Source of the DNA: Cycloclasticus sp. symbiont of Bathymodiolus heckerae
Lineage (GTDB): Bacteria > Pseudomonadota > Gammaproteobacteria > Methylococcales > Cycloclasticaceae
Direction of reading: 5' to 3'
NCBI GenBank assembly: GCA_002101235.1
Contig: LWTL01000112.1
Coordinates: forward strand, 1 to 64,000
Length of the DNA: 64,000 nucleotides
In this document: positions 45,151-61,679 of the stretch, piece after piece
How the letters are laid out: every line of letters begins with the position of its first letter
How positions within the stretch are numbered: position 1 is the first letter of the stretch
The notes under the pieces: model-generated
Seen by the model: only the letters and a program-made list of their open reading frames with translations
Database searches by the model: none
Told to the model about the DNA's origin: nothing
Translations under genes and position numbers: made by a program

Positions 45151-46063
45151 GTTATTAGTTTGCCTTAGCTTTCTAGTCGCTATTACCTTTTCAAGTATTG
45201 CGCTTGCCGAGGATATAAGCCACTTTGGTATTGGAAAAACTGCAACACCCGAAGAAATAGCTGGCTGGGATATTGACGTACGCCCTGACGGCAAAGGTTT
45301 GCCAAAAGGACAAGGATCTATCTCTGTAGGTGAAGAATTATACGAAGCAAAGTGTGCTTCTTGCCACGGCTCATTTGGCGAAGGTGTAGGACGTTGGCCT
45401 CCTCTAGCGGGCGGCGAAGATTCATTACGAGAAGACCGTCCAGAAAAGACCGTCGGTAGCTACTGGCCATACGCATCAACCTTATGGGATTATATAAACA
45501 GAGCAATGCCGTTCCCTGCACCACAATCATTAAAGCCTGATGAAGTTTATGCCATTACGGCTTACGTTTTGTATTTAAACGACCTCGTCGAAGATGATTT
45601 TGTTTTAACACAAGACAATTTAGCATCCATAAAAATGCCAAACGAAGACAATTTCTATATCGATGATAGACCCGATACAAATAACACTCGTTGCATGAAA
45701 AAATGTAAAGATCCTAGTAAAATCGTGGTTATTCAATCACTCAGCGGCATAACGCCTGATCAAGAAAAAGAAGAATCAACGACTGAACAAAACAACAGCC
45801 TTAGCGAAACGGCCATTGCAGGCAAAGCAATTTACACTTCAAGCTGCTTAGTCTGTCATGGCAGCGGTGTTGCTGGTGCTCCAACGTTAACTGATAAAGA
45901 AAGTTGGGCAAAAAGACTTGAGCAAGGCATGGATACTGTTGTAAAACATGCTATCGGTGGATTCCTTGGTGAAAAAGGCATGATGCCCCCTAAAGGTGGA
46001 AATATGTCCCTTACCGATGAAGATGTTAAAAATGCCGTTCATTACATGGTTGAGGCTGAATAA
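45134..46063 (+). CDS. soxD: Diheme cytochrome c subunit SoxD
   Basis: A 309-residue periplasmic cytochrome that takes electrons from SoxC. A signal peptide covers about 1-25 (ends SIALA). Two haem sites are present: C74-C77-H78 (CASCH) and C238-C241-H242 (CLVCH). The ATG at 45134 is chosen because it starts the signal peptide; an upstream in-frame start adds a non-hydrophobic tail inside soxC. It overlaps soxC by 17 bases and soxX follows after 2 bases. Confidence 0.9.
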   Translation: MFSLNKLLVCLSFLVAITFSSIALAEDISHFGIGKTATPEEIAGWDIDVRPDGKGLPKGQGSISVGEELYEAKCASCHGSFGEGVGRWPPLAGGEDSLREDRPEKTVGSYWPYASTLWDYINRAMPFPAPQSLKPDEVYAITAYVLYLNDLVEDDFVLTQDNLASIKMPNEDNFYIDDRPDTNNTRCMKKCKDPSKIVVIQSLSGITPDQEKEESTTEQNNSLSETAIAGKAIYTSSCLVCHGSGVAGAPTLTDKESWAKRLEQGMDTVVKHAIGGFLGEKGMMPPKGGNMSLTDEDVKNAVHYMVEAE

Positions 46064-46065
46064 AT

Positions 46066-46413
46066 ATGTTATCCATAAAAATCCCTTTCAAGTTCCTTTT
46101 TATAATCGTCGCGTTATCTATTATCTCAAACATAGCATTAGCTAGCGAAATGGACGGTAAAAAGATAGCTTTCGATAGAAAGAAAGGCAACTGCCTAGCT
46201 TGTCACGCGATGGATGACGGCGATATGCCCGGTAACATAGGCCCACCTTTAATCGTAATGAAAACAAGATTCCCAGACCGTGCCATACTTAAAGCACAAA
46301 TTTGGGATGCAACCATAAAAAACCCTATTTCAATCATGCCTCCTTTTGGAAAACACCACATTCTAAGCGACGCTGAGATTGAAAAATTACTCGATTACCT
46401 CTATACCCTTTAA
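46066..46413 (+). CDS. soxX: Cytochrome c subunit SoxX
   Basis: A 115-residue monohaem cytochrome with an N-terminal signal peptide (about 1-27) and haem motif CLACH (C43, C46, H47). The segment GNIGPPL, followed by the FPD and IMPPFG regions, matches SoxX, which pairs with SoxA to attach thiosulfate to SoxY. It lies 2 bases after soxD. Confidence 0.9.
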   Translation: MLSIKIPFKFLFIIVALSIISNIALASEMDGKKIAFDRKKGNCLACHAMDDGDMPGNIGPPLIVMKTRFPDRAILKAQIWDATIKNPISIMPPFGKHHILSDAEIEKLLDYLYTL

Positions 46414-46434
46414 CTTACTAGTAACGGAGAAAAC

Positions 46435-46893
46435 ATGGCTATTTCACGTAGAAAATTCTTAAACATGCTAACAGTCGGTTCTACCGCTTGTTTAGCTTTA
46501 ATGACACCTATCACCTCATGGGCCGCTTGGGCGAGCGACGCCTTTAATGCAGAAAAGCCAGAAGATGCTTACAAAAGTCTATTTGGCTCTAACGAACTAA
46601 TTGAAAGCGATGAAGTTAAATTAAAAGTACCAAAAATTGCAGAAAATGGCGGTGCTGTACCTGTTTCAGTTAAAACAGATATGAAAAATGTTGAGTCAAT
46701 CAGTATTTTTGTAAAAGACAACCCACAGCCATTAACAGCAACATTCCAAATACCTGTTGGCACAATAGCCGATATCTCTACACGCATTCGGTTAGCTCAA
46801 ACAAGTACCGTTACTGCTGTTATAAAAGCAGATGGCAACCTTTACAGCAAAAGCCAAGAAGTAAAAGTAACGATCGGCGGCTGCGGCGGTTAA
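46435..46893 (+). CDS. soxY: Thiosulfate-carrier protein SoxY
   Basis: SoxY (152 residues) carries sulfur intermediates on the cysteine of its C-terminal swinging arm GGCGG (C150). The N-terminus has a Tat signal (SRRKFL at 4-9), allowing export of the folded SoxYZ pair. A ribosome site (ACGGAG) precedes the ATG. Confidence 0.95.
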   Translation: MAISRRKFLNMLTVGSTACLALMTPITSWAAWASDAFNAEKPEDAYKSLFGSNELIESDEVKLKVPKIAENGGAVPVSVKTDMKNVESISIFVKDNPQPLTATFQIPVGTIADISTRIRLAQTSTVTAVIKADGNLYSKSQEVKVTIGGCGG

Positions 46894-46953
46894 ACAAAAT
46901 CAAATTAATTATGCCTAAAGCGTAATTCAATTTCATCCTATTTGGAGATAACA

Positions 46954-47256
46954 ATGAAAGTTAAAGCAAAATTTAAAAATGACATTACTAAAGTTCGCGT
47001 ATTAGCAAAACACCCTATGGAAACAGGTCGTCGTATTAACAAAGAAACCGGCGAAAAAATACCCGCAAAATACATACAAGAATTAACCTGCGAATATGAC
47101 GGAAAAGTTGTTTTTGTTGCTCAATTCGGCACAGCTGTATCACAAAACCCTTATCTTGCCTTTTCATTTGAAGGCGGAAAGAAAGGCTATACTCTAGAAC
47201 TACGCTGGAATGACAACACGGGTGATGTAGAAAAAACGGAAGCTAAAATCAAATAA
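46954..47256 (+). CDS. soxZ: Sulfur-oxidation protein SoxZ
   Basis: A 100-residue all-beta partner of SoxY, exported with it by hitch-hiking on the SoxY Tat signal. The ATG at 46954 has GGAG 7 bases upstream, and homologues begin at this point; an in-frame TTG four codons earlier overlaps that ribosome site. The LAKHPMETGRR segment is characteristic. Confidence 0.94.
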   Translation: MKVKAKFKNDITKVRVLAKHPMETGRRINKETGEKIPAKYIQELTCEYDGKVVFVAQFGTAVSQNPYLAFSFEGGKKGYTLELRWNDNTGDVEKTEAKIK

Positions 47257-47263
47257 CCTACGC

Positions 47264-48094
47264 ATGAAAAACCTTCTTAATATACTAGTCATCTTTACTT
47301 CTTTGGGCTGTATCAATATCGCCAATGCAACTCCAGAGCAAGATAAAGAAACTTTCCAGCGTTTCTATATGGAACGTTTCCCTGATGTATCTAAAGAAGA
47401 TTTTGGCAACGGTGTGTACGCGCTTGACCAAGATGCACGAGACCAATGGGAGTCTATGAGTGACTTCCCTCCTTATGAAGATGACTTGGAGGCTGGCGAA
47501 GAACTCTTTAACAACCCATTTAAAAATGGCAAAAACTACGCCAATTGTTTTAAAAATGGCGGTGAAAACATTCGTCAGAATTATCCTAAATTTGATACTG
47601 AGCGAAATAGTGTTATCACCTTAGAATTAGCTATTAACGAATGCCGTATGAAAAATGGCGAATCTGCTCTGCCTTATCAAAAAGGGGATATTGCAAAAAT
47701 TTCAGCCTATATGGCATCCACATCGGAAGGCTCTTTAATTGAAATTAAAGTCCCTAATGATAATGCGCTTATAGCTTACGAAGAAGGTAAGCAATACTTT
47801 TACTCTAAACGCGGGCAATTAAACTTTTCATGCGCCAACTGTCATATTCAAAATGTAGGTCGAAAAGCACGTTCAGAAACGCTAAGTCCTGCACTAGGCC
47901 ATCCTACTCACTTTCCTGTTTATAGAATGGCTTGGCAAAACTTTGGCACCTTACATCGTCGATTTGCGTCTTGTAACAAACAAGTACGTGCACAACCGCT
48001 CGCCGGGCAAAGTGAGGATTACCGAAACTTAGAATATTTCTTAACATACATGAGCAACGGCTTACCTATTAATGGCCCCGCTTCGAGAAAATAG
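47264..48094 (+). CDS. soxA: Cytochrome c subunit SoxA (single haem type)
   Basis: SoxA (276 residues) is the catalytic part of the SoxAX thiosulfate-conjugating cytochrome. A signal peptide (1-22) is followed by two cytochrome-like domains, of which only the second keeps a CxxCH motif (C190-C193-H194). C237 in RFASCNKQ is the expected cysteine haem ligand. Single-haem SoxA proteins are known, so this is a normal variant. soxK follows 15 bases on. Confidence 0.92.
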   Translation: MKNLLNILVIFTSLGCINIANATPEQDKETFQRFYMERFPDVSKEDFGNGVYALDQDARDQWESMSDFPPYEDDLEAGEELFNNPFKNGKNYANCFKNGGENIRQNYPKFDTERNSVITLELAINECRMKNGESALPYQKGDIAKISAYMASTSEGSLIEIKVPNDNALIAYEEGKQYFYSKRGQLNFSCANCHIQNVGRKARSETLSPALGHPTHFPVYRMAWQNFGTLHRRFASCNKQVRAQPLAGQSEDYRNLEYFLTYMSNGLPINGPASRK

Positions 48095-48109
48095 ACAAGG
48101 CATTTATCT

Positions 48110-48421
48110 ATGAAAATAAAATCATTATTACTGTCTTTCTTAATTTTCCTATCTTGTTTAACAACTACTGTTCAAGCAGCAACACAATCACAAGCTAAGG
48201 AAGCCATCCTCACTGCACACAACTTATGGGACAAAACTAAAACAGCCGGTCACGAGTGGAACACTATTAAGCCGCTTATGGCTCAAGCAACACAGGCCCT
48301 ACAAGAAAATGACTACATAACGGCTATAGCACTTGCAAAGAAAGCCTCCACACAATCAAAATTGGCTTTAGTTCAGGCCGAGCGTGAAAAAACAAACTGG
48401 TTAAATAACCTACCAAAATAA
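48110..48421 (+). CDS. soxK: SoxXA-binding protein SoxK (SAXB)
   Basis: A 103-residue secreted helical protein: signal peptide about 1-23 (ends VQA), then the pattern EWNTIKPLMAQATQAL with repeated Ala-rich helices and LVQAEREK. This matches the small SoxAX-binding protein described in Chlorobaculum and found in many sox clusters between soxA and soxB, where it stabilises SoxAX. The location here is exactly that. Sequence identity of this small family is low, so position counts heavily. Confidence 0.75.
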   Translation: MKIKSLLLSFLIFLSCLTTTVQAATQSQAKEAILTAHNLWDKTKTAGHEWNTIKPLMAQATQALQENDYITAIALAKKASTQSKLALVQAEREKTNWLNNLPK

Positions 48422-48440
48422 TTCACTTCAAGGTACTAAA

Positions 48441-50192
48441 ATGAATCGTAGAGAATTTAATCGCCTTCTAACAGCAGGTGCGATTGCTGGTATTTTACCT
48501 AAAACAAGTTTAGCTTTTTCTAGCATTCAACCAAACTACGAGTTACCCCAAAAGGGTAACGCACGCCTACTCCATATTACAGATTGTCATGCGCAGTTGA
48601 ACCCTATTTACTTCAGAGAACCCAACGTCAACATTGGTTTACACGAAGCGCTAGGCAAAACACCGCATATTGTTGGCGAGGCTTTCTTAAAAAAAAATGC
48701 TCTTTCTCAAAACTCTATTGAAGCGCATGCTTTTACGTATCTAAACTTCAATGCTGGTGCGAAAGAATTCGGTAAGGTTGGCGGTTTCGCCCATTTAAGT
48801 ACACTAATAAAATCACTTAGGAGCTCAGCTGGTGGTAATGAAAACTCATTACTACTTGACGGTGGCGACACTTGGCAAGGCTCTGCCACAGCCTACTGGT
48901 CACGAGGTAAGGACATGGTTCAGGCTGCTAATTTACTCGGTGTTGATGTTATGACCGGACATTGGGAGTTTACATATAAAGATGAAGAAGTATTCTCAAA
49001 TATTGATGATTTTAACGGGGAATTTCTGGCCCAAAACATTAAGCTAACAGAAGATGCCCTATTCGAAGGAAAAAGAGCCCACGATGAAGATTCGGGGCAT
49101 GTTTTCATGCCTTACAGTATCAAAGAAATTAATGGTCATCGCGTCGCTATTATTGGCCAAGCCTTCCCTTACACGCCTGTTGCTAATCCTAAACGTTTTA
49201 TTCCCGACTGGAGCTTTGGCATTCAGAACCAAGAGTTACAGGAACTTGTCGACGAAATAAAAGAAAACGAAAAGCCCAGTGCCGTTATCCTTTTATCGCA
49301 CAATGGGATGGATGTAGACTTGAAACTTGCCTCTGTTGTCACTGGTATTGATTTCATTCTTGGCGGCCATACTCATGATGGTGTACCCAGACCTGTTACT
49401 GTTAAAAATAGTAGCGGAAAAACCGTTGTAACAAATGCCGGCTCTAACGGAAAGTTTGTTGGTGTCCTCGACTTAAACATTCAAAATGGTGTTGTTAAAG
49501 GATATGAATACCGCCTTTTACCCGTGTTTTCTAATTTCATTAAAGCCGACGCCGAAATGGCGGCATTGATTGAGAGCATTCGTAAACCTCATTTAGATAC
49601 ATTGAGCGAAGAACTTGCTGTCTCCGAGTCCCTTTTATACCGTCGAGGAAATTTTAACGGTACGTTTGATCAATTAATTTGTGACGCATTACGTCATGAA
49701 TTAAATGCAGAAATATCTCTGTCACCTGGTTTTAGATGGGGAACGACTGTACTACCTGGTCAAGCCATCACTTTCGAACATGTTATGGATCAAACCTGCA
49801 TCACTTACCCAGAAACATACGCAAGAGATATGCAAGGTAAGGAGATTAAGGCGATTTTAGAAGACGTTGCCGATAACCTATTTCACCCAGACCCTTTTTA
49901 CCAACAAGGCGGTGACATGGTTCGTGTCGGCGGTATGAACTACACCTGCGAGCCCACCGCAGCTACTGGCCAACGTATTACCAATATGACATTGGATAAC
50001 GGTAAGTCTATCGAGGCAAATAAGTATTATAAAGTTGCAGGTTGGGCTACTGTTGGGTCAAAAGCCCATGGTAAGCCCATCTGGGAAGTTGTTTCACGTT
50101 ACTTACGCGATCAAAAAACTATCAATATAACGACAATTAACTCACCTAAATTAAAGAACCTTGGCAGCAATTTAGGTAATATTATCTTGTAG
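48441..50192 (+). CDS. soxB: Thiosulfohydrolase SoxB
   Basis: SoxB (583 residues) hydrolyses SoxY-bound sulfonate to sulfate using a dimanganese site of the 5'-nucleotidase fold. A Tat signal RREFNRLL is at 3-10. Metal motifs are present: D48 and H50 (TDCHAQLNP), DGGDTWQG, GHWEFTY, LLSHNG and GGHTHDG. It closes the cluster. A small GGAGC/GCTCC hairpin (50193-50205) follows the stop, before the convergent kinase gene. Confidence 0.95.
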   Translation: MNRREFNRLLTAGAIAGILPKTSLAFSSIQPNYELPQKGNARLLHITDCHAQLNPIYFREPNVNIGLHEALGKTPHIVGEAFLKKNALSQNSIEAHAFTYLNFNAGAKEFGKVGGFAHLSTLIKSLRSSAGGNENSLLLDGGDTWQGSATAYWSRGKDMVQAANLLGVDVMTGHWEFTYKDEEVFSNIDDFNGEFLAQNIKLTEDALFEGKRAHDEDSGHVFMPYSIKEINGHRVAIIGQAFPYTPVANPKRFIPDWSFGIQNQELQELVDEIKENEKPSAVILLSHNGMDVDLKLASVVTGIDFILGGHTHDGVPRPVTVKNSSGKTVVTNAGSNGKFVGVLDLNIQNGVVKGYEYRLLPVFSNFIKADAEMAALIESIRKPHLDTLSEELAVSESLLYRRGNFNGTFDQLICDALRHELNAEISLSPGFRWGTTVLPGQAITFEHVMDQTCITYPETYARDMQGKEIKAILEDVADNLFHPDPFYQQGGDMVRVGGMNYTCEPTAATGQRITNMTLDNGKSIEANKYYKVAGWATVGSKAHGKPIWEVVSRYLRDQKTINITTINSPKLKNLGSNLGNIIL

Positions 50193-50209: not shown

Positions 50210-51916
50210 TTACCTATAAAGCAGTAAAGTAATATTTACTAGCACACTCAATAAAGCAATGCCTTTCCAGAAAATCATTGGGTTACGTTCCATCAATGGA
50301 ATATCTTTCATCTCGGTGAACTCTTTATTCGGATGGGCTAGATCATGAATAAATTCTGAAATCTCCTCATAGCGATGAGATGACTTTTTGGAAAGAACCT
50401 TCTTTAAAGCACCATCAACCCACACAGGTACATCTTCATTATGTTCCCGTGCAGAAATATAATTCAACTTACTAACACCCTTCTCACCATACTTATCACC
50501 GTATGGAAATGCACCTGTTAACATTTCATAACACAACACACCTAACGAAAATGCATCAGAACGTTGGCTTGATGACGTACCCATAAAGTATTCTGGCGCG
50601 GTATAGTGTTGCGTCCCTAATAAACTTAAGCGCTCCAATGGCGTTGTGATTTCTTCAACACCAGCAATTTTAGTTGAACCAAAATCAATGATTTTCACCG
50701 TGTCGTGCATATCAATAATCACATTTTCAGGTTTTAAGTCCTGATGAATCATTTCTTTACGGTGAAAAGCCCTTAGCCCCCTAGCAAGCTGGCGAACAAT
50801 CGCACGCACTTCATGTGCTGTTGGGCTTGGATTATCATTCATCCAATGGCGCAATGTTTGCCCTTCTATATACTCAGTTACATAGTATAAAAACCGACGT
50901 GGCCTGGTTTGCTCAACAATTTTTAGTACATGGTTATTATCAATGAGCTTGCCGACCCACTCCTCATGTACAAACATATCTAAGTAGTTTGCATCGTCCG
51001 CATAATTAGCCGATGGCGTTTTAATAACAACCTTTTGCCCAGACTCTTCATCCGTTGCTAAATATACTTGCGTACGGTTACTGGCATGCAGTTCACGCTC
51101 AATACGATACCCATCTAGTCTCATTCCTGCAGTAAGATCTGGCGGGAAAGGCAACTCCGTTAATTTACGGTAAACCTCTTCTTCGTCAATTTGTGGTAAT
51201 TCATTAAACCGAATAATTTGACACGTTACATTATCTAAACTGCCATTTTCTAATGCTAATGTAGTTATCGATCTTGCCGCACGGTCTAAATTATCGGGGC
51301 TCTCTTCGATAAACATTATCATTTTTTCATCACTAACAAACTCATGAACACCGTCTGTCGTCATTAAAAAGATATCGCCCTTTTCTACCAAGAAGTTTCG
51401 GTAGTCGATATCCACATGTAAATCGATACCCATTGCTCGCGTTAAGTAATTCTTTTCTTCAGAAACCCAAAATCGATGATCCTTTGTGCATTGCATAAGT
51501 TCACCGTTTCTTAATCTGTATATGCGCGTGTCACCAATATGAAAAAGATGAACCGTTGAAGATTTCACTACCAATGCACTTAATGTTGTCGCCAAGCCCT
51601 TATGCTCATCTTGACTGGCAACGCCCTGCCCGTACATCCAACGGTTTGTTGCGAGTAATACTTTTTGGACCGATGTTTTCACCGTCCATGAGTCAGGTGT
51701 ACAGTAATAATCCATCAATAAGCTTTTTGCGCAAGTTTCACTCGCCAACTTACCTTCTGCACAACCACTTACGCCATCAGCAATAACCGCCACAATACCT
51801 TTATGGTTTAAAGCAGACTCTTCCGGCAATAACACGCCAAAGCTGTCTTGATTTTCCTCTTTAATCCCTTTATCAGTCGATTGCCCAATACTGATTAATG
51901 CTGTTGATTCACTCAT
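50210..51916 (-). CDS. Bifunctional PP2C phosphatase-protein kinase with C-terminal membrane anchor
   Basis: A 568-residue protein. Residues 1-238 are a PP2C-type phosphatase (ADGVSG with D47, TTDGV with D189, SLDN with D229). Residues 270-535 are a Ser/Thr kinase: K299 in VVIKT, HQDLKPEN with D393, and DFGS at 411-414; the glycine-rich loop (ERELHASNRTQVYLA) has lost its glycines. One membrane helix ends the protein. A similar fusion gene lies next to the nitrate transporter and nirB in Pseudomonas, so a role in nitrate assimilation is inferred. It follows the transporter by 25 bases on the same strand. Confidence 0.88.
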   Translation of the reverse strand: MSESTALISIGQSTDKGIKEENQDSFGVLLPEESALNHKGIVAVIADGVSGCAEGKLASETCAKSLLMDYYCTPDSWTVKTSVQKVLLATNRWMYGQGVASQDEHKGLATTLSALVVKSSTVHLFHIGDTRIYRLRNGELMQCTKDHRFWVSEEKNYLTRAMGIDLHVDIDYRNFLVEKGDIFLMTTDGVHEFVSDEKMIMFIEESPDNLDRAARSITTLALENGSLDNVTCQIIRFNELPQIDEEEVYRKLTELPFPPDLTAGMRLDGYRIERELHASNRTQVYLATDEESGQKVVIKTPSANYADDANYLDMFVHEEWVGKLIDNNHVLKIVEQTRPRRFLYYVTEYIEGQTLRHWMNDNPSPTAHEVRAIVRQLARGLRAFHRKEMIHQDLKPENVIIDMHDTVKIIDFGSTKIAGVEEITTPLERLSLLGTQHYTAPEYFMGTSSSQRSDAFSLGVLCYEMLTGAFPYGDKYGEKGVSKLNYISAREHNEDVPVWVDGALKKVLSKKSSHRYEEISEFIHDLAHPNKEFTEMKDIPLMERNPMIFWKGIALLSVLVNITLLLYR

Positions 51917-51941: not shown

Positions 51942-53408
51942 TTACGTTACATCAATTAATTCTACAGTCCCATCTTCAAGCACTTCAGCTGTTTGTCCGC
52001 TAGGCTCTCTTAGGAAGATGAGCATTAACAACAAAACAACGCCAGCTGTTCCGCCAATGACCATGAAGAAGATTTGAGGCGATACGAAAGACAGCACAGT
52101 TAAAAACACAAGGCCACCGACATTACCGTAAGCGCCAACCATACCGGCTATCTGCCCTGTCATTCTGCGTTGAATAAGCGGCACCATGGCATAAACAGCA
52201 CCTGACGCTCCTTTAGCAAAAAGACCACAAACAATCGTAGCGCATACCATTGTTGTAATAGCCCATTCTTCGGTCACTTGCCCTAAAACAAAGAAACTAA
52301 TCGTAATACCTGTAAACAAAACCACCAATGTGCGTTTACGGCCAAATTTATCACTCATTAAGCCACCACCCGGGCGCGCTATTAAATTCATTACAGGATA
52401 AATACCTGCAAGCAAGCCTGCCGTGATAGGTGATAAGCCGAACATATCTATATAAAGCAATGGCAACATAGAAACCAACGCCAGCTCTGAACCAAATGTC
52501 ACCATGTAACCTAAGTCTAACAGTGCTACTTGTCTAAACTGGTAACGAAACATTTCTGGGGTTTCTTTCGTCAATACATCTTTATTCACTCTCACAATAT
52601 GCATCGCTTGATATAAGTAAACCGCACTAACCGCAACATAAGCCCCAATCGTTAGTTCACTACTGATCCAACCCATTCCAGACGGTGAAAGCTTCCAAGC
52701 CAATAAAGCTAACGCACCATATATGGGCATACTCATAATAAGGTATAACGCAAGGTCAGCTTTCGTACTCACTTCCATGCCACCTACCTTTTTAGGCTTA
52801 AAGTACGTCGAACCCTGCGGCGTATCTGTTACTGAAAAGTAATAAACAACACCATAAACAATCGCTAATACAGCAGTCGTCGTAACAGCATATCGCCAGC
52901 CATCATCACCACCAAACCATAAGGCTAAACCTGGTAGTAACATGGCAGCACCGGCTGAACCAAAGTTACCCCAACCGCCATAAATGCCTTGTGCCACACC
53001 TGTTTGTTTAGCTGGAAACCACTCGCCTATCATACGAATACCAACAACGAATCCAGCGCCGACAAAACCCAGTAAAAACCGTGCTAAAGCTAGCTGCTGA
53101 AAGGTTTGAGCCCATGCAAAAAACAAACAAAGAAAGCCAGAGACAATCAGAATGCCTGAAAATAATCGGCGGGGTCCATAACTATCGACCAACATGCCAA
53201 CAATGATTCTGGCAGGAATCGTTAAAGCAACATTCAGTATCAATAGAACAGATACTTCCTGATTCGTTAAGTTAAACACTTCTCGAATAATTGACATCAA
53301 GGGTGCATGGTTAAACCACACCATGAAGCTTATAAAGAAAGCAAACCATGTTGTATGCAGTATTCTGATGTTACCTTTAAAAGAAAACAGATTAAGACGT
53401 GTTGACAC
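51942..53408 (-). CDS. Nitrate/nitrite transporter of the NarK/NasA major facilitator family
   Basis: A 488-residue, 12-helix MFS protein importing nitrate. Family features include the glycine-rich segments GFVGAGFVVGIRMIGEWFP and GLFAKGASGAVYAMVP. Start is GTG at 53408 with AGAGGT 7 bases upstream. It is divergent from nirB and precedes the phosphatase-kinase gene, so imported nitrate would feed the reductases of the opposite operon. A sigma-54-like promoter lies 40 bases upstream. Confidence 0.9.
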   Translation of the reverse strand: MSTRLNLFSFKGNIRILHTTWFAFFISFMVWFNHAPLMSIIREVFNLTNQEVSVLLILNVALTIPARIIVGMLVDSYGPRRLFSGILIVSGFLCLFFAWAQTFQQLALARFLLGFVGAGFVVGIRMIGEWFPAKQTGVAQGIYGGWGNFGSAGAAMLLPGLALWFGGDDGWRYAVTTTAVLAIVYGVVYYFSVTDTPQGSTYFKPKKVGGMEVSTKADLALYLIMSMPIYGALALLAWKLSPSGMGWISSELTIGAYVAVSAVYLYQAMHIVRVNKDVLTKETPEMFRYQFRQVALLDLGYMVTFGSELALVSMLPLLYIDMFGLSPITAGLLAGIYPVMNLIARPGGGLMSDKFGRKRTLVVLFTGITISFFVLGQVTEEWAITTMVCATIVCGLFAKGASGAVYAMVPLIQRRMTGQIAGMVGAYGNVGGLVFLTVLSFVSPQIFFMVIGGTAGVVLLLMLIFLREPSGQTAEVLEDGTVELIDVT

Positions 53409-53712: not shown

Positions 53713-56250
53713 ATGGCGCAAAAAAAGAAGTTAGTAGTAATCGGTAATGGTATGGTTGGGCATAAATTCATGCAAGCTATTGCAGAATTAAACGGTCAAG
53801 ATGGAGCAGAAGAATATGAACTGATCACCTTCTGTGAAGAGAGCAGGCTCGCTTATGATCGTGTGCAACTTTCATCATACTTCAGCGGTAAAACAGCCGA
53901 AGACTTATCGTTGGTAGAACCAGGTTTCTACGAAGATAATAACATCACTGTATATATTGGTGATCGCGCTAATCATATTGACCGCGAAAAACAAATCATC
54001 ACGTCAGATAACGGCATATCAGTTGAATACGACAAACTTGTTTTAGCAACAGGTTCATATCCTTTCGTGCCGCCTATTCCAGGCCACGAACGTGAAAACT
54101 GTTTTGTATACAGAACGATTGATGATCTTGAAAAAATCAGTGCTGCCGGTAAAACAGCAAAGTCTGGCGCAGTTATTGGCGGCGGCTTGCTCGGCCTTGA
54201 AGCTGCAAAAGCGCTTAAAGATATGAACCTTGAAACACATGTTATTGAATTTAGCCCGCGCTTAATGAGCGTGCAAATCGATGATGGTGCTGGCACGGTA
54301 TTAAGAGAAAAAATGGAAGAGATGAATGTCAAAATTCATACTGGCAAAAACACATCTCTTATCGAACAAGGCAAAGACGCTGTACATAAATTAAATTTTG
54401 CTGATGGCGAATCCATTGAAGCAGATATCATTCTGTTCTCACCGGGCATCCGTCCTCGTGATGAATTAGCACGCGACAGCGGCATAGAAATGGGCGAACG
54501 CGGCGGTATCGTTATTAACGACCAATGCCTTACCTCAGATGAAAACATCTACGCTATTGGCGAGTGTGCTTTATGGGGTGGAATGATCTACGGTCTTGTT
54601 GCGCCGGGCTATCAAATGGCTAAAGTTGCGGCTGACCATATTGCCGGCAAAGAAAATGCCTTTAAAGGTGCTGACATGAGCACTAAATTAAAGTTAATGG
54701 GTGTTGATGTTGCCAGTATTGGTGATGCACACGCTACAACGAAAGGCGCAAAGGTTTTCACTTATATAAACGGCCCTGAGCAAGTTTACAAGAAAATCGT
54801 TGTGAATGAAGATTCAACTCGTCTATTAGGCGCAGTGCTTATTGGCGATGCTAACGATTACGGCAATTTATTACAGTTAAAACTTAACGACATCCCATTA
54901 CCTGAAACACCTGACGCATTGATACTACCTCAACGTGATGGCGCAGTAGCAGGCATAGGCGTTGAAGCTTTACCTGATACGGCTCAAATTTGTTCTTGTT
55001 TTGATATCAGCAAAGGTGATTTATGTACTGCCGTTGCCGACGGCGCAACAACCATGAGCGCGATTAAAGAATGTACTAAAGCCAGCACAGGTTGCGGTGG
55101 TTGTACTGCATTGGTTGGGCAAGTATTAAACAAAGAATTAGAAAAAATGGGTGTTGATGTAAACACCGATCTTTGTGAGCATTTCCCGTACACACGTCAG
55201 GGTTTGTACTCTCTTATTCGTGTTAACGAAATTAAATCGTTTGACGACTTAATCGAAAAGCATGGCACAGGTCACGGTTGCGAAATTTGTAAACCAACAG
55301 CGGCTTCTATTTTCGCTTCGTGCTGGAATGATTATATTCTTGAAAAAGAGCATGCCGGTTTACAAGATACCAACGATCGTTACTTAGGTAACATCCAAAA
55401 TAACGGCACATACTCCATCGTGCCTAGAATTGCCGGCGGTGAAATCACACCTGACAAACTGATTGTTTTAGGCCAAGTTGCTAAAAAATATAATTTGTAT
55501 ACAAAAATCACGGGCGGCCAACGTGTCGATTTATTCGGCGCACGTTTAGAAGAGCTTCCTGATATTTGGAAAGAGTTGGTTGATGCCGGATTTGAAACAG
55601 GCCACGCCTACGGTAAATCACTACGTACTGTTAAGTCTTGTGTTGGTAGCACATGGTGTCGCTACGGTGTAGATGACAGTGTAGGCACAGCCATTGAGCT
55701 TGAAAATCGCTACAAAGGCTTACGTTCACCACATAAAATTAAGTTTGCTGTTTCAGGCTGTACGCGTGAATGTGCTGAAGCACAAAGCAAAGACGTAGGC
55801 ATTATCGCCACCGAGAACGGCTGGAACCTTTATGTATGTGGTAACGGCGGCATGAAACCTCGCCATGCGGATTTACTCGCCACTGATTTAGACCGTGAAA
55901 CACTCATTAAATACATCGATCGCTTCCTTATGTTCTATGTTAAAACAGCCGATCGTTTAGAACGTACTGCTACATGGATGAACAATTTAGAAGGCGGTTT
56001 GGATTACTTACGTGAAGTAGTTATTGATGATTCGCTTGGTCTTGCTGAACAGCTAGAAAAAGAAATGGAATCAGTTGTTGGCACCTACCAATGTGAGTGG
56101 AAAACGACCATTGAAGACCCTGATAAATTAAAGGCATTTAAACCGTTTGTGAATGCAAACGCTGCCGATAGCAACATCGTATTTGTTGAAGAGCGCGAAC
56201 AAATTCGCCCAGCAAATGAAGACGAACGCAAACAATTGGCTAACGCCTAG
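53713..56250 (+). CDS. nirB: Assimilatory nitrite reductase [NAD(P)H] large subunit
   Basis: NirB (845 residues) reduces nitrite to ammonium in the cytoplasm. It has an N-terminal FAD/NAD(P)H domain (about 1-410; IGNGMVGHKFMQAI), a BFD-like [2Fe-2S] domain (about 425-490; CSCFDISKGDLC and GCGGC), and the C-terminal sirohaem-[4Fe-4S] half with cluster cysteines C643, C649, C683 and C687. It heads the operon nirB-nirD-phzF-like-nitrate reductase-FeS/anchor, whose control region shows sigma-54 and NtrC-like elements. Confidence 0.95.
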   Translation: MAQKKKLVVIGNGMVGHKFMQAIAELNGQDGAEEYELITFCEESRLAYDRVQLSSYFSGKTAEDLSLVEPGFYEDNNITVYIGDRANHIDREKQIITSDNGISVEYDKLVLATGSYPFVPPIPGHERENCFVYRTIDDLEKISAAGKTAKSGAVIGGGLLGLEAAKALKDMNLETHVIEFSPRLMSVQIDDGAGTVLREKMEEMNVKIHTGKNTSLIEQGKDAVHKLNFADGESIEADIILFSPGIRPRDELARDSGIEMGERGGIVINDQCLTSDENIYAIGECALWGGMIYGLVAPGYQMAKVAADHIAGKENAFKGADMSTKLKLMGVDVASIGDAHATTKGAKVFTYINGPEQVYKKIVVNEDSTRLLGAVLIGDANDYGNLLQLKLNDIPLPETPDALILPQRDGAVAGIGVEALPDTAQICSCFDISKGDLCTAVADGATTMSAIKECTKASTGCGGCTALVGQVLNKELEKMGVDVNTDLCEHFPYTRQGLYSLIRVNEIKSFDDLIEKHGTGHGCEICKPTAASIFASCWNDYILEKEHAGLQDTNDRYLGNIQNNGTYSIVPRIAGGEITPDKLIVLGQVAKKYNLYTKITGGQRVDLFGARLEELPDIWKELVDAGFETGHAYGKSLRTVKSCVGSTWCRYGVDDSVGTAIELENRYKGLRSPHKIKFAVSGCTRECAEAQSKDVGIIATENGWNLYVCGNGGMKPRHADLLATDLDRETLIKYIDRFLMFYVKTADRLERTATWMNNLEGGLDYLREVVIDDSLGLAEQLEKEMESVVGTYQCEWKTTIEDPDKLKAFKPFVNANAADSNIVFVEEREQIRPANEDERKQLANA

Positions 56251-56259
56251 GACATCATC

Positions 56260-56613
56260 ATGCAAACAGCACAACAACAAGATATGACATGGCACGACAT
56301 CTGCGCGCTGAACGACATTCCTAAAAACTCCGGTGTTGCAGCCTTAGTGGGTGACCAACAAATAGCGCTTTTTTCAATTGGTAAAGAAGCTCAAGTGTTT
56401 GCCATTGGTAACTATGACCCGTTCAGCAATGCGAACGTTTTAGCACGTGGTATTGTAGGAAGCATTGGCGATACAATCGTTGTTGCTTCGCCGATTTATA
56501 AGCAGCATTTCGAGTTAGCCACAGGGCAATGCGTAGAAGACGAAACTGTCTCAGTCGAGTCATATGCCATTCGCATAGACAATAATCGCGTATTCATTGG
56601 TTTAACAGCTTAA
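56260..56613 (+). CDS. nirD: Nitrite reductase [NAD(P)H] small subunit
   Basis: A 117-residue Rieske-fold protein without the Rieske cysteines and histidines, as is normal for NirD. The segments WHDICALNDIPKNSGVAALV, FAIGNYDPFSNANVLARGI and SPIYKQHFEL are conserved. It lies 9 bases after nirB and completes the nitrite reductase. Confidence 0.94.
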   Translation: MQTAQQQDMTWHDICALNDIPKNSGVAALVGDQQIALFSIGKEAQVFAIGNYDPFSNANVLARGIVGSIGDTIVVASPIYKQHFELATGQCVEDETVSVESYAIRIDNNRVFIGLTA

Positions 56614-56628
56614 ATAACGGGGAATATC

Positions 56629-57540
56629 ATGAGCCATACTTATTACACATTAGATGTTTTCACCGACACACCTTTCCAAGGTGCACAAATTGCTGTATTT
56701 CCCAATGCGCAAGATATCGACGAAAACTTATTACCTGTTATTGCTAAAGAAATAAATTTATCAGAAACAGTCTTTATCTTTCCAGCAGACTCTGGCGCTT
56801 TTCAATTAAGAACCTTTTCTGTACACGGTGAAATTGATTTTGCAGGACACCCTGTTTTAGCCGCTGGCCACATATTAGTAGAAACAGGTCAAGTAACGTT
56901 AACGGATAAAAATACTGCGGTTACCTTAAAGCAAAACTCACAAGACCTAACTGTCAATATCAGTAAAACTGATGACAATACCTGCCCTGTTCAATTTACC
57001 TTACAAAGCAACCCTATCGTTGATCGCTTCACGCCGACTAAAAAAGAACTGGCTAGCATTTTGTCATTGGACGAGTCTGAAATAAATCACAGTGACTTCC
57101 AAACATTGCTTGTTTCATGTGGCTTACCGTACTTAGTTGTACCAGTAGCATCTCAAGAAGTTGTCCGCAAAGCACGCTTTAATATTGATGCTTGGAGCCA
57201 ATCTAGTGCGCCGGCAATGGCCGCTCAAGAAATTATTTTACTCACCAGTAAAACCATTTCTAGTGAAACTAACTTCCACGCGCGCATTTTAGGCCCAAAA
57301 ATTGGCTTACACGAAGACCCACCTATTGGCTCTAGCCTCCCCTCATTAACAGGTTACTTAGCATGGCATGACCATCTACGTGACGGAACATATACTTTTG
57401 CTATAGATCGTGGAACTAAAGAAACGCGACGCAGTCTGCTAAACGTTGAAATGGATAAACACGTTGATCGCCCTTTAACACTTCGTGTTGAAGGACAATC
57501 TGTTCTTATTAGCAAAAATACACTTTTACCGAAAAAATAG
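56629..57540 (+). CDS. PhzF-family isomerase-like protein
   Basis: A 303-residue protein with the diaminopimelate epimerase-like fold of PhzF. The catalytic glutamate is E46 in NLSETVF, and the FAGHPVLAA segment (71-79) is present. PhzF makes the phenazine precursor by isomerisation, but most family members have no known substrate and no phenazine genes are here. It lies between nirD (15 bases) and the nitrate reductase gene (11 bases), so it is part of the nitrate operon. What it contributes is unknown; it might act on a metabolite or cofactor. Confidence 0.85.
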   Translation: MSHTYYTLDVFTDTPFQGAQIAVFPNAQDIDENLLPVIAKEINLSETVFIFPADSGAFQLRTFSVHGEIDFAGHPVLAAGHILVETGQVTLTDKNTAVTLKQNSQDLTVNISKTDDNTCPVQFTLQSNPIVDRFTPTKKELASILSLDESEINHSDFQTLLVSCGLPYLVVPVASQEVVRKARFNIDAWSQSSAPAMAAQEIILLTSKTISSETNFHARILGPKIGLHEDPPIGSSLPSLTGYLAWHDHLRDGTYTFAIDRGTKETRRSLLNVEMDKHVDRPLTLRVEGQSVLISKNTLLPKK

Positions 57541-57551
57541 AGAGTTAAGCA

Positions 57552-59756
57552 ATGTTATTTGGCCGAAAGCAAAAGAACCCTATAAAAATTGCCGACAAAA
57601 AAATCACCAGCTGGACATACGCCACTTGCGGCTATTGCTCAACCGGTTGTGCTATTGAAATTGGCAAAAATGAAAACGATGAAGTGGTCGGAACACGCGG
57701 CGTAGGCGGCGCAGATGTTAACCGTGGAAAACTTTGCGTTAAAGGGATTTTTGAGCACGAATTATTCGATGCTGCTGGCCGTGGCGATACGCCTCTGATG
57801 CGCGAACAAACAAACCAAGATTTTAAAAAAACCAGTTGGGATGATGCTTTAGATCACACCGCTTCTGAGATTAAACGCATTCAAGAAAAATACGGGCGTG
57901 ATTCGTTTGCCATCGTTTCTACAGGGCAAATTTTTACCGAAGAATTTTATACGCTTGGAAAACTCACTCGTGGACTGATTGGTACAAATAATTACGACGG
58001 GAACACTACCTTGTGCATGGCTTCAGCCGTATCGGGTTATAAGCGCTCCTTTGGCCTAGATGGCCCTCCAGGCTGCTACGAAGATTTCAGTCATACCGAT
58101 TGCCTCATGGCGTGGGGTTCAAACTTACCTGAACAGCACCCTATTATTTATTGGCGTATGAAAGAAGCCAAAGAACAGCGTGATTTTCCACTGATTGTTA
58201 TTGACCCTCGCGTTACCATGCTCGCTCAATTTGCGGACATTCACTTAGCCGTTAACCCCGGCACAGATGTTGTTCTTCAAAATGCACTCATGCATGTTAT
58301 TTTTGACGAAGGCTTGGAAGATAAAGCTTATATCAAAGCTAATACGAAGGGCATCAAAGCACTAAGAGAAGAAGTAGCAAAATACGATCCAACGACTGCT
58401 TATAAAATATGTGGCATTGATGAAGACACCATCCGTAATGTTGCAAGGCTGTATGCCAATGCAGGTACGGCGATGAATATTTGGACCATGGGTATTAACC
58501 AAAGTACGCACGGTTCCGATGGCGTTGTTGGCTTAAATAACCTAAGTCTTATCACAGGCAATATTGGCAAACCCGGCGGTACAAGCTTGTCCATTACAGG
58601 CCAGTGTAATGCAATGGGCACACGTGAATGGTCATCTTGTTCTGGCCTACCCGGTTACCGTTATTTAGAAAACGCCGATGAACGTCAAGAAATTGCTGAT
58701 TTTTGGGGTATTGAAGAAAGCTTTTTTCCTAAAAAGCGCGGTATGGCGCAAACCGATATTTTTCCTGCTATCGAAACAGGCGAAATCAAAGGCTTATGGC
58801 TAGTTGCAACAAACCCTATGACCTCAATGGCAAACACGCCGCGTATTCGTAAAATTCTTGATAAATTAGAATTTCTCGTTGTACAAGATGCTTACGTTGA
58901 TATGGAATGTGTTGAATACGCACACACCTTCTTACCTGCTGCTGTATGGGCTGAAAAAGAAGGCGTTATGACCAACACTGAACGTCGTGTCAATATGATT
59001 CGTAAAGTAACCGAACCGGTTGGCGAAAGTAAATCGGATTTCGATATCTTCAATGAACTGGCGACTCGTTTCAATTCAGAAAAGAAAATCGTTTTCCCAG
59101 AAACACCCGCTGGTGCGTTTGAGGAAATGCGTGAATTATCTAAAGGCCGTTTATTGGACATTTCTGGCATGTCGCACGAATTGATTGAAAAAAGTCGCGG
59201 TATCCAATGGCCCTATACAGAAGAACAACTTGCAAATGGCGAAGCTCCTCCTAAAGGCGGCAAACGTCTTTATACCGAACCTGCGACCTTCTCTTTTGCA
59301 GACGGTTTAGCGAAGCTTATCCCTTTACCATTTATCGATAATAATGAGCGCCCAGATGCAGCTTTTCCATTTTGGCTGAATTCTGGTCGTTTAGTCGAAC
59401 ATTTTCATACAAGAACACGAACAGGCAAAGTGGGTAACAACAATAAATACAGCCCTATTCCGTTTATGGAAATAAGCCCCGATGCTGCTAAAGAGCTGGG
59501 TATTGAGCATCAATCCTACGTACGCTGTGTTTCGCGCCGTGGTGATGCGGTTGTTATGGCAATGTTAACGCACCGTGTTGCTAAAGACGCTGTCTTTATC
59601 CCATTCCATTTCTTTGACTGTGTAAACCGTTTAACACTGGGTTTACTCGACCCTCATTCACGGCAACCAGCCTTTAAACAAGGTGCCATTCGTATCGAAA
59701 AGATCGAAGACCAAGAAGCCGCCGCTCGAATGAATAAAGAAATGAGAACGTACTAA
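57552..59756 (+). CDS. Assimilatory-type nitrate reductase, molybdopterin catalytic subunit
   Basis: A 734-residue Mo-bisMGD enzyme reducing nitrate to nitrite. The N-terminal [4Fe-4S] cysteines are C26, C29, C33 and C62 (CGYCSTGC, KLCVKG). C155 in LCMASAVSGYKR is the expected Mo ligand, typical of NasA/NapA nitrate reductases. There is no Tat signal, so it should stay in the cytoplasm. It lacks the C-terminal [2Fe-2S] BFD domain of Klebsiella NasA, so electrons must come from another protein. The next gene encodes an iron-sulfur/membrane anchor fusion. The operon position after nirBD supports an assimilatory role. Confidence 0.88.
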   Translation: MLFGRKQKNPIKIADKKITSWTYATCGYCSTGCAIEIGKNENDEVVGTRGVGGADVNRGKLCVKGIFEHELFDAAGRGDTPLMREQTNQDFKKTSWDDALDHTASEIKRIQEKYGRDSFAIVSTGQIFTEEFYTLGKLTRGLIGTNNYDGNTTLCMASAVSGYKRSFGLDGPPGCYEDFSHTDCLMAWGSNLPEQHPIIYWRMKEAKEQRDFPLIVIDPRVTMLAQFADIHLAVNPGTDVVLQNALMHVIFDEGLEDKAYIKANTKGIKALREEVAKYDPTTAYKICGIDEDTIRNVARLYANAGTAMNIWTMGINQSTHGSDGVVGLNNLSLITGNIGKPGGTSLSITGQCNAMGTREWSSCSGLPGYRYLENADERQEIADFWGIEESFFPKKRGMAQTDIFPAIETGEIKGLWLVATNPMTSMANTPRIRKILDKLEFLVVQDAYVDMECVEYAHTFLPAAVWAEKEGVMTNTERRVNMIRKVTEPVGESKSDFDIFNELATRFNSEKKIVFPETPAGAFEEMRELSKGRLLDISGMSHELIEKSRGIQWPYTEEQLANGEAPPKGGKRLYTEPATFSFADGLAKLIPLPFIDNNERPDAAFPFWLNSGRLVEHFHTRTRTGKVGNNNKYSPIPFMEISPDAAKELGIEHQSYVRCVSRRGDAVVMAMLTHRVAKDAVFIPFHFFDCVNRLTLGLLDPHSRQPAFKQGAIRIEKIEDQEAAARMNKEMRTY

Positions 59757-59780
59757 ATTAAAGTTTAAGGACCCTATACA

Positions 59781-61679
59781 ATGTTTGAAGTACGCAGTGA
59801 CGAACCAAAATATGCTTTTTTATGGGACAAAGAAACCCGTCAAAAAAATCGTTACGGTCAAGATATTGAACTAACACAAGACGACGATTCATTAAGAAAC
59901 GTTAGCCTTAATATTAATGATGACTGCGGTATTGGTGAAAACCCGAACCGTTACAAACAGCACGGTTTTTACTTCAACGCGGACAACTGCATTGGTTGCC
60001 ATGCTTGCGAAGCGGCCTGTAGTGAAAAAAACGACAATCCTGCCCATATTTCATTCCGTTCAGTAGGTTATGTCGAAGGCGGAACCTACCCCGACTATCA
60101 ACGCTTAAATATTTCAATGGCGTGTAACCATTGTGATGACCCTGTTTGTTTAAAGGGTTGCCCTACGCGTGCTTATACCAAATTTGCTGAATACGGCGCA
60201 GTATTACAAGATCCCGATATTTGCTTTGGCTGTGGCTATTGCACATGGGTTTGCCCATACAACGCACCACAATTAGACCCTGTTGCAGGTGAAGTGAGCA
60301 AATGTAATATGTGTGTTGACCGGCTAGAAGTTGGTCTAAAGCCTTCTTGCGTCAGCGCATGTTTAGGCAATGCACTCGAATTTGGCGTAATAGAAAATAT
60401 TCCAGAAAACCGCGTAGAGGCTAAAGCTGAAATACCAGGCTTTCCAACAACTGATATTACGCAACCCAATATTCGTTTCCAACAAACTGTGCCTACTCAT
60501 CGTGAAATGACACGAACTGATGGCATGCCATTAAAGTACCACCGTGATGATGAAGCAGGAATATTCAAACCTGAATTGGATGCAAAGCATGGTCAAGCGA
60601 AACATTGGAATTGGAAAAAATTACTGACCTCACACGAAAGTGCCCACGTTATCTTTACCTTGAGCGCACAAGCCGTACTGGGTGCTTTTTTACTCCTCGT
60701 ACTGAGCTCTATTCTTGGCTTAGAGGCATTATCAGCGGTTAAAGAAAGCGCTTTATTCAGCCCTGTTTTAGTTGTTATGTTTGTCGTATTAACGATAGGT
60801 TTGTTTAAACTGAATATGCACCTCGGAAAACCACACCGTTTTTATCGTGGCTTTAACAATCTTAAACACTCTCCGCTTAGTCGAGAAATTGCCGGCGTGT
60901 CCGCTTTTTACACCTTCTTTATGGGGTATGTTGCCTTATCGTTTTTCGATCATGGCTTCATGCAAATATTAGCATCTATTTGCGCCGTATTAGGCAGCAT
61001 CAGTGGCGCATTGGGTGTGTACTACATGGTTAAGCTATACCAAATAAAAGCTCGCCCTTTCTGGAATCATTGGCAAACAGCCACATCGTTTTATGGCAGT
61101 TTATTCAGCTTAGGCGGCGTTCTATTGGGTTTATTAACCATTCCGTTCACAGATTCTGCTTTATTAATCCGTACGCTCGCCAGCGTTACCTTTATTGGCT
61201 TAGCCGCTGAGATTATTGGACATATCTTCCACACATCAGATATGCGTAAAACAAGCAGTGAAGGTGTTGCCTCTTGGTATATTCAAAACACACGCTTTGG
61301 CAAATCATGGATATTAAGGAATGTCCTACTGGGTTCTGCATTAGCCATAACACTGGCCACTATTCTCACTGCGCCTGAACACCTCATCGCAAGCTACCTA
61401 TGGGTAGGTTTATTCCTAATCATTACCAGCGCTGCTGCTATTAGTCGTTCATTGTTCTTTGTTACTGTTATTCCAACGACTATGCCGGGTGCATTCTTCT
61501 GGAAAAACAAGCAGTTCTCAGAGCATGCTTTAGAAACAGGCTTGGCAGAAATGGAACAAGTAGGTGTAGAACAAGAAGTGCATCACCCATTTAAATTTGA
61601 TGAGTTATTAGAAACTATTAAAACGACACCACTTAAAGAAATGATTCGTCAAACAAAAGATATTATTTTCTTTAAATAA
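59781..61679 (+). CDS. DmsB-like four-cluster ferredoxin fused to a DmsC-like quinol-oxidising membrane anchor
   Basis: A 632-residue fusion. Residues 62-200 carry 16 cysteines for four [4Fe-4S] clusters (C70/73/76/80, C115/118/123/127, C148/151/154/158, C175/178/190/194), as in DmsB. From about 278 to 610 there are roughly eight membrane helices resembling DmsC/YnfH, which oxidises menaquinol or ubiquinol. A 60-residue hydrophilic N-terminal extension is extra. No Tat or Sec signal precedes the ferredoxin, so it should face the cytoplasm with the nitrate reductase encoded 24 bases upstream. The pair would form a quinol-nitrate oxidoreductase; this is inference from architecture. A strong terminator follows. 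Confidence 0.82.
   Translation: MFEVRSDEPKYAFLWDKETRQKNRYGQDIELTQDDDSLRNVSLNINDDCGIGENPNRYKQHGFYFNADNCIGCHACEAACSEKNDNPAHISFRSVGYVEGGTYPDYQRLNISMACNHCDDPVCLKGCPTRAYTKFAEYGAVLQDPDICFGCGYCTWVCPYNAPQLDPVAGEVSKCNMCVDRLEVGLKPSCVSACLGNALEFGVIENIPENRVEAKAEIPGFPTTDITQPNIRFQQTVPTHREMTRTDGMPLKYHRDDEAGIFKPELDAKHGQAKHWNWKKLLTSHESAHVIFTLSAQAVLGAFLLLVLSSILGLEALSAVKESALFSPVLVVMFVVLTIGLFKLNMHLGKPHRFYRGFNNLKHSPLSREIAGVSAFYTFFMGYVALSFFDHGFMQILASICAVLGSISGALGVYYMVKLYQIKARPFWNHWQTATSFYGSLFSLGGVLLGLLTIPFTDSALLIRTLASVTFIGLAAEIIGHIFHTSDMRKTSSEGVASWYIQNTRFGKSWILRNVLLGSALAITLATILTAPEHLIASYLWVGLFLIITSAAAISRSLFFVTVIPTTMPGAFFWKNKQFSEHALETGLAEMEQVGVEQEVHHPFKFDELLETIKTTPLKEMIRQTKDIIFFK

Follow-up and report, generated by a model that had tools for sequence, protein, structure and literature searches.

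The gene pair and its two proteins

The window analysed in this work is a 64,000-nucleotide (nt) stretch of contig LWTL01000112.1 (C112), which belongs to a gammaproteobacterial genome of 2.13 Mb. Two plus-strand genes, 24 bases apart, encode a 734-amino-acid (aa) predicted nitrate reductase of the Nas type and a 632-aa protein in which a DmsB-like ferredoxin is fused to a DmsC-like membrane anchor. Before them lie, in this order, minus-strand genes for a PP2C phosphatase-protein kinase fusion and a NarK-family transporter, and then nirB, nirD and a PhzF-family gene on the plus strand (Table 1). The two proteins probably form a membrane-bound, cytoplasm-facing quinol:nitrate oxidoreductase that serves assimilation together with NarK and NirBD. 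The nearest loci were from Cycloclasticus, with 84-87% identity for both proteins and 90-91% for NirB.

The same pair recurred in scores of genomes, with its genes side by side. When species genomes were scanned for relatives of the fusion, 515 stretches encoding such proteins were found, and the best 80 of these 515 were kept for locus analysis. A nas-like gene lay directly before the fusion gene in almost every kept locus with enough upstream sequence, and across 75 loci the gap had a median of 58 bases. Of 398 evenly sampled Pseudomonadota genomes, six had the fusion, and the clade of the window's catalytic subunit was present in exactly the same six. The clade members in this sample were 67-71% identical to the window protein, and the next matches reached at most 40%. 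Overall, the clade was about 67-87% identical to the window protein, and any other enzyme seen was at most about 40% identical. Among 143 gammaproteobacterial genomes, the fusion and the nas clade were both found in an identical 22, each of a different genus; one of the 143 carried two copies of both genes. Neither gene occurred alone in any genome of the two samples. If the occurrences were independent, the chance of such overlap would be about 1e-25, a figure that relatedness and linkage make only a guide. Hosts of the pair included Methylococcales methanotrophs, Thioglobus, Thiotrichaceae and tubeworm symbionts. A search for distantly related DNA in E. coli gave no match. In genome G409 the two genes were on different contigs and both were retained; the nas gene was still beside nirBD and genes resembling transporters. 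The strict co-occurrence and the adjacency indicated that the fusion serves the Nas-type enzyme.

Some loci had larger gaps between the two genes. In the few that were inspected, open reading frames (ORFs) that by their sequence resemble toxin-antitoxin or transposase genes were seen: small toxin-antitoxin-like ORFs in loci L034 and L062, and a transposase-like ORF in L081.

The Pfam domains Molybdop_Fe4S4, Molybdopterin and Molydop_binding were found in the catalytic subunit. Pfam found no domain after residue 710, indicating that there is no BFD domain. A twin-arginine translocation (Tat)-like RRx[FLIVMW] motif was found in the first 45 residues of none of the 68 family members. The N-terminal [4Fe-4S] site is formed by Cys26, Cys29, Cys33 and Cys62, and the putative molybdenum ligand Cys155 is followed by Met156. 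Motifs of the Nas/Nap type were present at residues 154-159 (LCMASA), 314-318 (GINQS) and 349-356 (TGQCNAMG), whereas Cys-His and RGxxNVQG prevailed in the aligned formate dehydrogenases. The curated NCBIfam cut-offs were missed for NasC (506 of 1100 bits) and halobacterial NasA (459 of 1000 bits); these are narrow models, and a Pseudomonas-type Nas failed them too. The score was 129 of 778 bits with the dmsA_ynfE model, compared with 506 for NasC, and the motifs and the tree agreed that this is not a subunit of the DmsA/PsrA/NarG clade. With the narG model it was 55 of 1084 bits, indicating no NarG-type subunit.

In a maximum-likelihood tree, whose reference set was without B. subtilis NasC and cyanobacterial NarB, the window enzyme's clade, Nas and NapA were split from formate dehydrogenases at 100% in the Shimodaira-Hasegawa-like approximate likelihood-ratio test (SH-aLRT). 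The clade was a separate deep branch on the nitrate reductase side. The predicted structure best matched NapA (2nap; Z 43.7, 689 residues, root-mean-square deviation 2.7), and formate dehydrogenases were close behind (Z 42.0), so structure alone is not decisive. Together, the neighbouring nirBD and narK genes, the motifs and the tree make nitrate the best-supported substrate.

For the fusion, DmsB/Fer4_11 homology was found at about residues 60-207 and PF04976 (DmsC) at residues 285-560, above its cut-off. TIGR02951 (DmsB) gave 161 bits, under its cut-off of 214. All 16 ligand cysteines (70, 73, 76, 80; 115, 118, 123, 127; 148, 151, 154, 158; 175, 178, 190, 194) were invariant in 57 homologues, and the extension at the N-terminus (about 60 residues) was partly conserved in them. 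In the AlphaFold2 model there are eight long membrane helices, and confidence is high for most of them. Structural matches to the anchor fold were ActC, from alternative complex III (Z 23.1, 283 residues), and the menaquinone-bound PsrC of polysulfide reductase (Z 18.9, 240 residues). An earlier sequence-only reading of the window had described a nitrate reductase with neither Tat signal nor BFD domain and a fusion of a 16-cysteine ferredoxin with an anchor of about eight helices, preceded by a 60-residue extension. Each of these features was borne out.

In E. coli DmsC, replacement of His65 blocks quinol oxidation, Glu87 is important in quinol coordination, and Ser82 is conserved in all quinone-binding NrfD-like subunits, as described by Calisto and Pereira 2021 (PMC8076601). 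The equivalent residues of the window protein are His347, Ser364 and Glu369. They were invariant in 57 of 57 fusions, in 19 of 19 Soe-like anchors and in nine of nine exported DmsC proteins. "Soe-like" is a label given by architecture (a Tat-less A subunit of 950-985 aa with separate B and C) and by one locus beside xsc; it is not a curated family. The invariant residues supported the earlier proposal that the enzyme may be fed by quinol. In the genome, ubiA was above its cut-off and menD was not, in a search that did not extend to the futalosine pathway of menaquinone synthesis. Ubiquinol is thus the likely donor, judging by these genes.

The orientation of the fusion was predicted from charge bias, calculated as Lys plus Arg in the ferredoxin-side loops minus those on the other side, with the helix limits of the model mapped onto all anchors. 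The mean bias was +10.1 for the fusions (range 5 to 14, n = 57) and +12.05 for Soe-like anchors whose catalytic subunits lack a Tat signal (range 8 to 17, n = 19), whereas it was -5.7 for anchors of the DmsC/YnfH type whose catalytic subunits bear one (range -9 to -4, n = 9). The ranges of the first two groups did not overlap with that of the exported anchors. Docking charge alone is insufficient to account for this, because ferredoxin of the same kind docks on the exported anchors, whose bias has the opposite sign. Under the positive-inside rule, the reversed bias means that the side of the fusion with the ferredoxin and the catalytic subunit should face the cytoplasm, in agreement with the earlier reading. 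In a tree of the ferredoxin part, the fusion grouped with exported DmsB (99/99) and Soe-like B branched apart. This suggests, tentatively in view of the long branches, that the fusion module flipped independently of Soe.

Neighbouring genes

The nirBD genes and the NarK-family transporter gene that the sequence-only reading had placed near the pair were found at 53713-56613 and 51942-53408, respectively.

Table 1. Features of the nitrate cluster in the window
Feature	Position	Strand	Remarks
Catalytic subunit, predicted Nas-type nitrate reductase with molybdenum-bis(pyranopterin guanine dinucleotide) (Mo-bisPGD)	57552..59756	+	734 aa; no Tat signal, no BFD tail
DmsB-DmsC fusion, putative electron-transfer subunit and membrane quinol dehydrogenase	59781..61679	+	632 aa
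Fusion, N-terminal extension	59781..59960	+	60 residues, partly conserved, without known domain
Fusion, DmsB-like four-cluster ferredoxin domain	59961..60398	+	16 invariant cysteines
Fusion, DmsC-like eight-helix anchor	60633..61481	+	Putative quinol-site residues His347, Ser364, Glu369
nirB, assimilatory nitrite reductase large subunit	53713..56250	+	
nirD, nitrite reductase small (Rieske-like) subunit	56260..56613	+	
NarK-family nitrate/nitrite transporter	51942..53408	-	
PhzF-family protein	56629..57540	+	Between nirD and nitrate reductase gene; frequent neighbour
PP2C phosphatase-protein kinase fusion	50210..51916	-	Adjoins narK; frequent neighbour

The PhzF-family gene has no obvious role in nitrate assimilation and was retained in about 32 related loci. 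In about 17 or more loci from several families, the gene for the PP2C phosphatase-kinase fusion lay close to the nitrate cluster, and its product is possibly a regulator of nitrate uptake or assimilation. A different type of NirB, about 35-38% identical to that of the window, lay beside the pair in Thiotrichaceae-like and other genomes (loci L055, L057, L061, L064-L067, L081-L083, L187 and L199), often with a different NirD-like Rieske protein too. The nitrate reductase pair is thus combined with two nitrite reductase lineages. Downstream of the fusion, a MoxR-type ATPase was encoded in 16 loci and a von Willebrand factor A (VWA)-domain protein in 12 (e.g. L056:11960-13498 and L014:13526-15268). 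The two recall RavA/ViaA and may act as a pair in the maturation or quality control of iron-sulfur membrane complexes.

A sox-like thiosulfate oxidation cluster (43840-50192) adjoins the nitrate cluster, which was unexpected in a Cycloclasticus-like hydrocarbon degrader. Located there were genes for a SoxC-type molybdoenzyme (43840-45150; the nas gene follows about 12 kb downstream), for a SoxA/TsdA-like cytochrome (47264-48094) and for a protein of 583 aa with a Tat signal, which by its sequence resembles SoxB (48441-50192).

Proposed mechanism and rival explanations

In the proposed mechanism, NarK would import nitrate, and the anchor would oxidize quinol, most likely ubiquinol, at the DmsC-type site, close to the cytoplasmic side of the membrane. 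The electrons would pass through the four [4Fe-4S] clusters of the fused DmsB domain to the [4Fe-4S] cluster of the Nas-type subunit and on to Mo-bisPGD, where nitrate would be reduced to nitrite in the cytoplasm. NirBD would then use NADH to reduce nitrite to ammonium. The DmsC-type quinol site is placed on the ferredoxin side in PMC8076601. With such a site, protons would be released and taken up on the same side and no charge would be moved, so the nitrate reduction step would be electroneutral, in contrast to that of NarGHI. Where organisms make quinol cheaply, the enzyme would spare NADH or ferredoxin.

A broader statement is favoured with less confidence, though we still lean towards it: the pair would be a widespread electroneutral ubiquinol:nitrate oxidoreductase, of Nas lineage on an inverted DmsBC module that flipped independently of SoeBC, and would replace NADH- or ferredoxin-linked Nas in many methane-, hydrocarbon- and sulfur-oxidizing Gammaproteobacteria. 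The sequence-only reading had arrived at a quinol-fed assimilatory enzyme, an interpretation that our results support and do not prove. Its further claim, that such an enzyme stands in place of the known donor types, was refined. A Nas-type subunit on a DmsBC module is unlisted in the surveys consulted, but quinol-fed nitrate assimilation had already been proposed with NarGHI in a Riftia symbiont (PMC11636981, which cites Malm 2009 on M. tuberculosis).

Several points weigh against a quinol-fed, cytoplasm-facing complex. The tree recovered the clade of the catalytic subunit as monophyletic (100%) with a long branch, and did not fix the order in which this clade, Nas and NapA diverged. The ferredoxin part of the AlphaFold model was poor, and a plain Foldseek search with the whole fusion gave no match below E 0.001, so the domain claims for that part rest on sequence. 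The charge bias is a prediction, and its exported comparison set had only nine proteins. It is also conceivable, if rather improbable, that the Nas-type subunit takes electrons from a soluble donor (NADH via NirB, or ferredoxin or flavodoxin) and that the fusion is an auxiliary quinone-reducing or docking partner. The characterized Nas enzymes that we know of use soluble donors, such as NADH for Paracoccus NasC (PMC6618116), and the NirB gene is close by. This arrangement is at odds with the missing BFD tail, the strict co-retention with the fusion, and the invariance of the quinol-site residues and the 16 cysteines; moreover, electron flow from quinol to nitrate is the downhill direction.

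The same quinol-linked complex might also be mainly dissimilatory or an electron sink, used in redox balancing or anaerobic respiration. Respiratory nitrate reduction is typically linked to quinol, and low-oxygen settings are inhabited by some of the hosts (Thioglobus, Thiotrichaceae and tubeworm symbionts). We regard such a role as unlikely, since the pair clusters with nirBD and NarK, the predicted orientation would conserve no energy, and Methylococcales methanotrophs, which are aerobes, also carry the pair. No NarG or NapA was found in the genome, which does not itself decide between the two roles.

There is very little to suggest that the fusion serves another molybdoenzyme, such as a sulfite- or DMSO (dimethyl sulfoxide)-type one, and lies beside the nas gene incidentally. 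DmsBC modules usually pair with DmsA-type or SoeA-type subunits, and the SoxC-like enzyme is encoded upstream. That enzyme belongs to a molybdoenzyme family other than the PF00384 type, one for which we know of no such ferredoxin partner. Apart from the window enzyme, the genome encoded a single PF00384 molybdoenzyme, an NAD-type formate dehydrogenase with its gene split over two contigs, and only one DmsC domain was found. No molybdoenzyme was seen beside the unlinked fusion in G409, and none of such kind beside the fusion on the short contig of L052. Genomes with the fusion and another molybdoenzyme but no Nas-clade member were not seen. On the co-occurrence, the genome content and the G409 case, this pairing, which the sequence-only reading had itself named as a possible refutation, was rejected.

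A formate dehydrogenase, or another oxidase, as the catalytic subunit is just as hard to credit. The idea comes from NCBIfam, in which TIGR01591 (Fdh-alpha) gave the best score, under its cut-off. It was rejected because the controls, a Pseudomonas-type Nas and S. meliloti NarB, showed the same ranking, and the Cys-Met active site, the Nas motifs and the tree set the enzyme apart from formate dehydrogenases.

Comparison with known systems

A description of the pair was not found in the open-licence literature, and the published surveys consulted list no such complex. Wells et al. 2020 (PMC7331816) state that no enzyme of the clade uniting Nas, AioA, NapA and related formate dehydrogenases is associated with a four-cluster subunit or a membrane anchor. 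In the part of Calisto and Pereira's survey of NrfD-like complexes used here (PMC8076601), no nitrate reductase complex was found, and SoeC is the inverted case.

If the proposed complex is real, the pair would be a counter-example to the former statement, and its anchor a second inverted one of DmsC type beside SoeC. Textbooks, which list soluble donors for assimilatory nitrate reductase, would miss the donor in a sizeable share of Gammaproteobacteria (22 of the 143 genomes sampled), with methanotrophs, sulfur oxidizers and animal symbionts among the affected groups. Feeding the enzyme from quinol would make nitrate use less costly in NADH where reverse electron transport makes NADH expensive, and models of yield and flux would change. 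The two genes can serve directly as markers, and the pair is testable in cultivable relatives of Methylomonas and Methylomicrobium.

The window enzyme shares with Nas (NasA, NasC and NarB) a cytoplasmic Nas-type subunit, the active-site motifs, and nirBD and a nitrate transporter as neighbours. Those enzymes differ in using NADH, ferredoxin or flavodoxin, and the window subunit is at most about 40% identical to them. Most proteobacterial Nas proteins seen had about 900 aa with a C-terminal extension, compared with 734 aa here. DmsABC, the E. coli DMSO reductase, has a four-cluster ferredoxin, an eight-helix anchor and His65/Ser82/Glu87 like the fusion, but DmsA is of another catalytic clade and Tat-exported, the anchor bias is opposite, and B and C are separate proteins. 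SoeABC resembles the pair in its cytoplasm-facing DmsBC-type module, Tat-less catalytic subunit and charge bias. It differs in that its catalytic subunit, of 950-985 aa and another clade, oxidizes sulfite, and in that B and C are unfused; Soe-like A subunits were only about 22-27% identical to the window catalytic subunit, in partial alignments.

NarGHI, like the proposed complex, is a cytoplasm-facing quinol:nitrate oxidoreductase with a four-cluster subunit. It combines a catalytic subunit of the NarG clade with a haem-b NarI, and quinol is oxidized on the outer side, so that energy is conserved. The window pair differs in having a DmsC-type anchor and a catalytic subunit that is not of the NarG type. 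In our interpretation, the pair would work like a cytoplasm-facing Dms-type quinol oxidoreductase; it is not DmsABC, SoeABC or NarGHI, and it joins two known modules.

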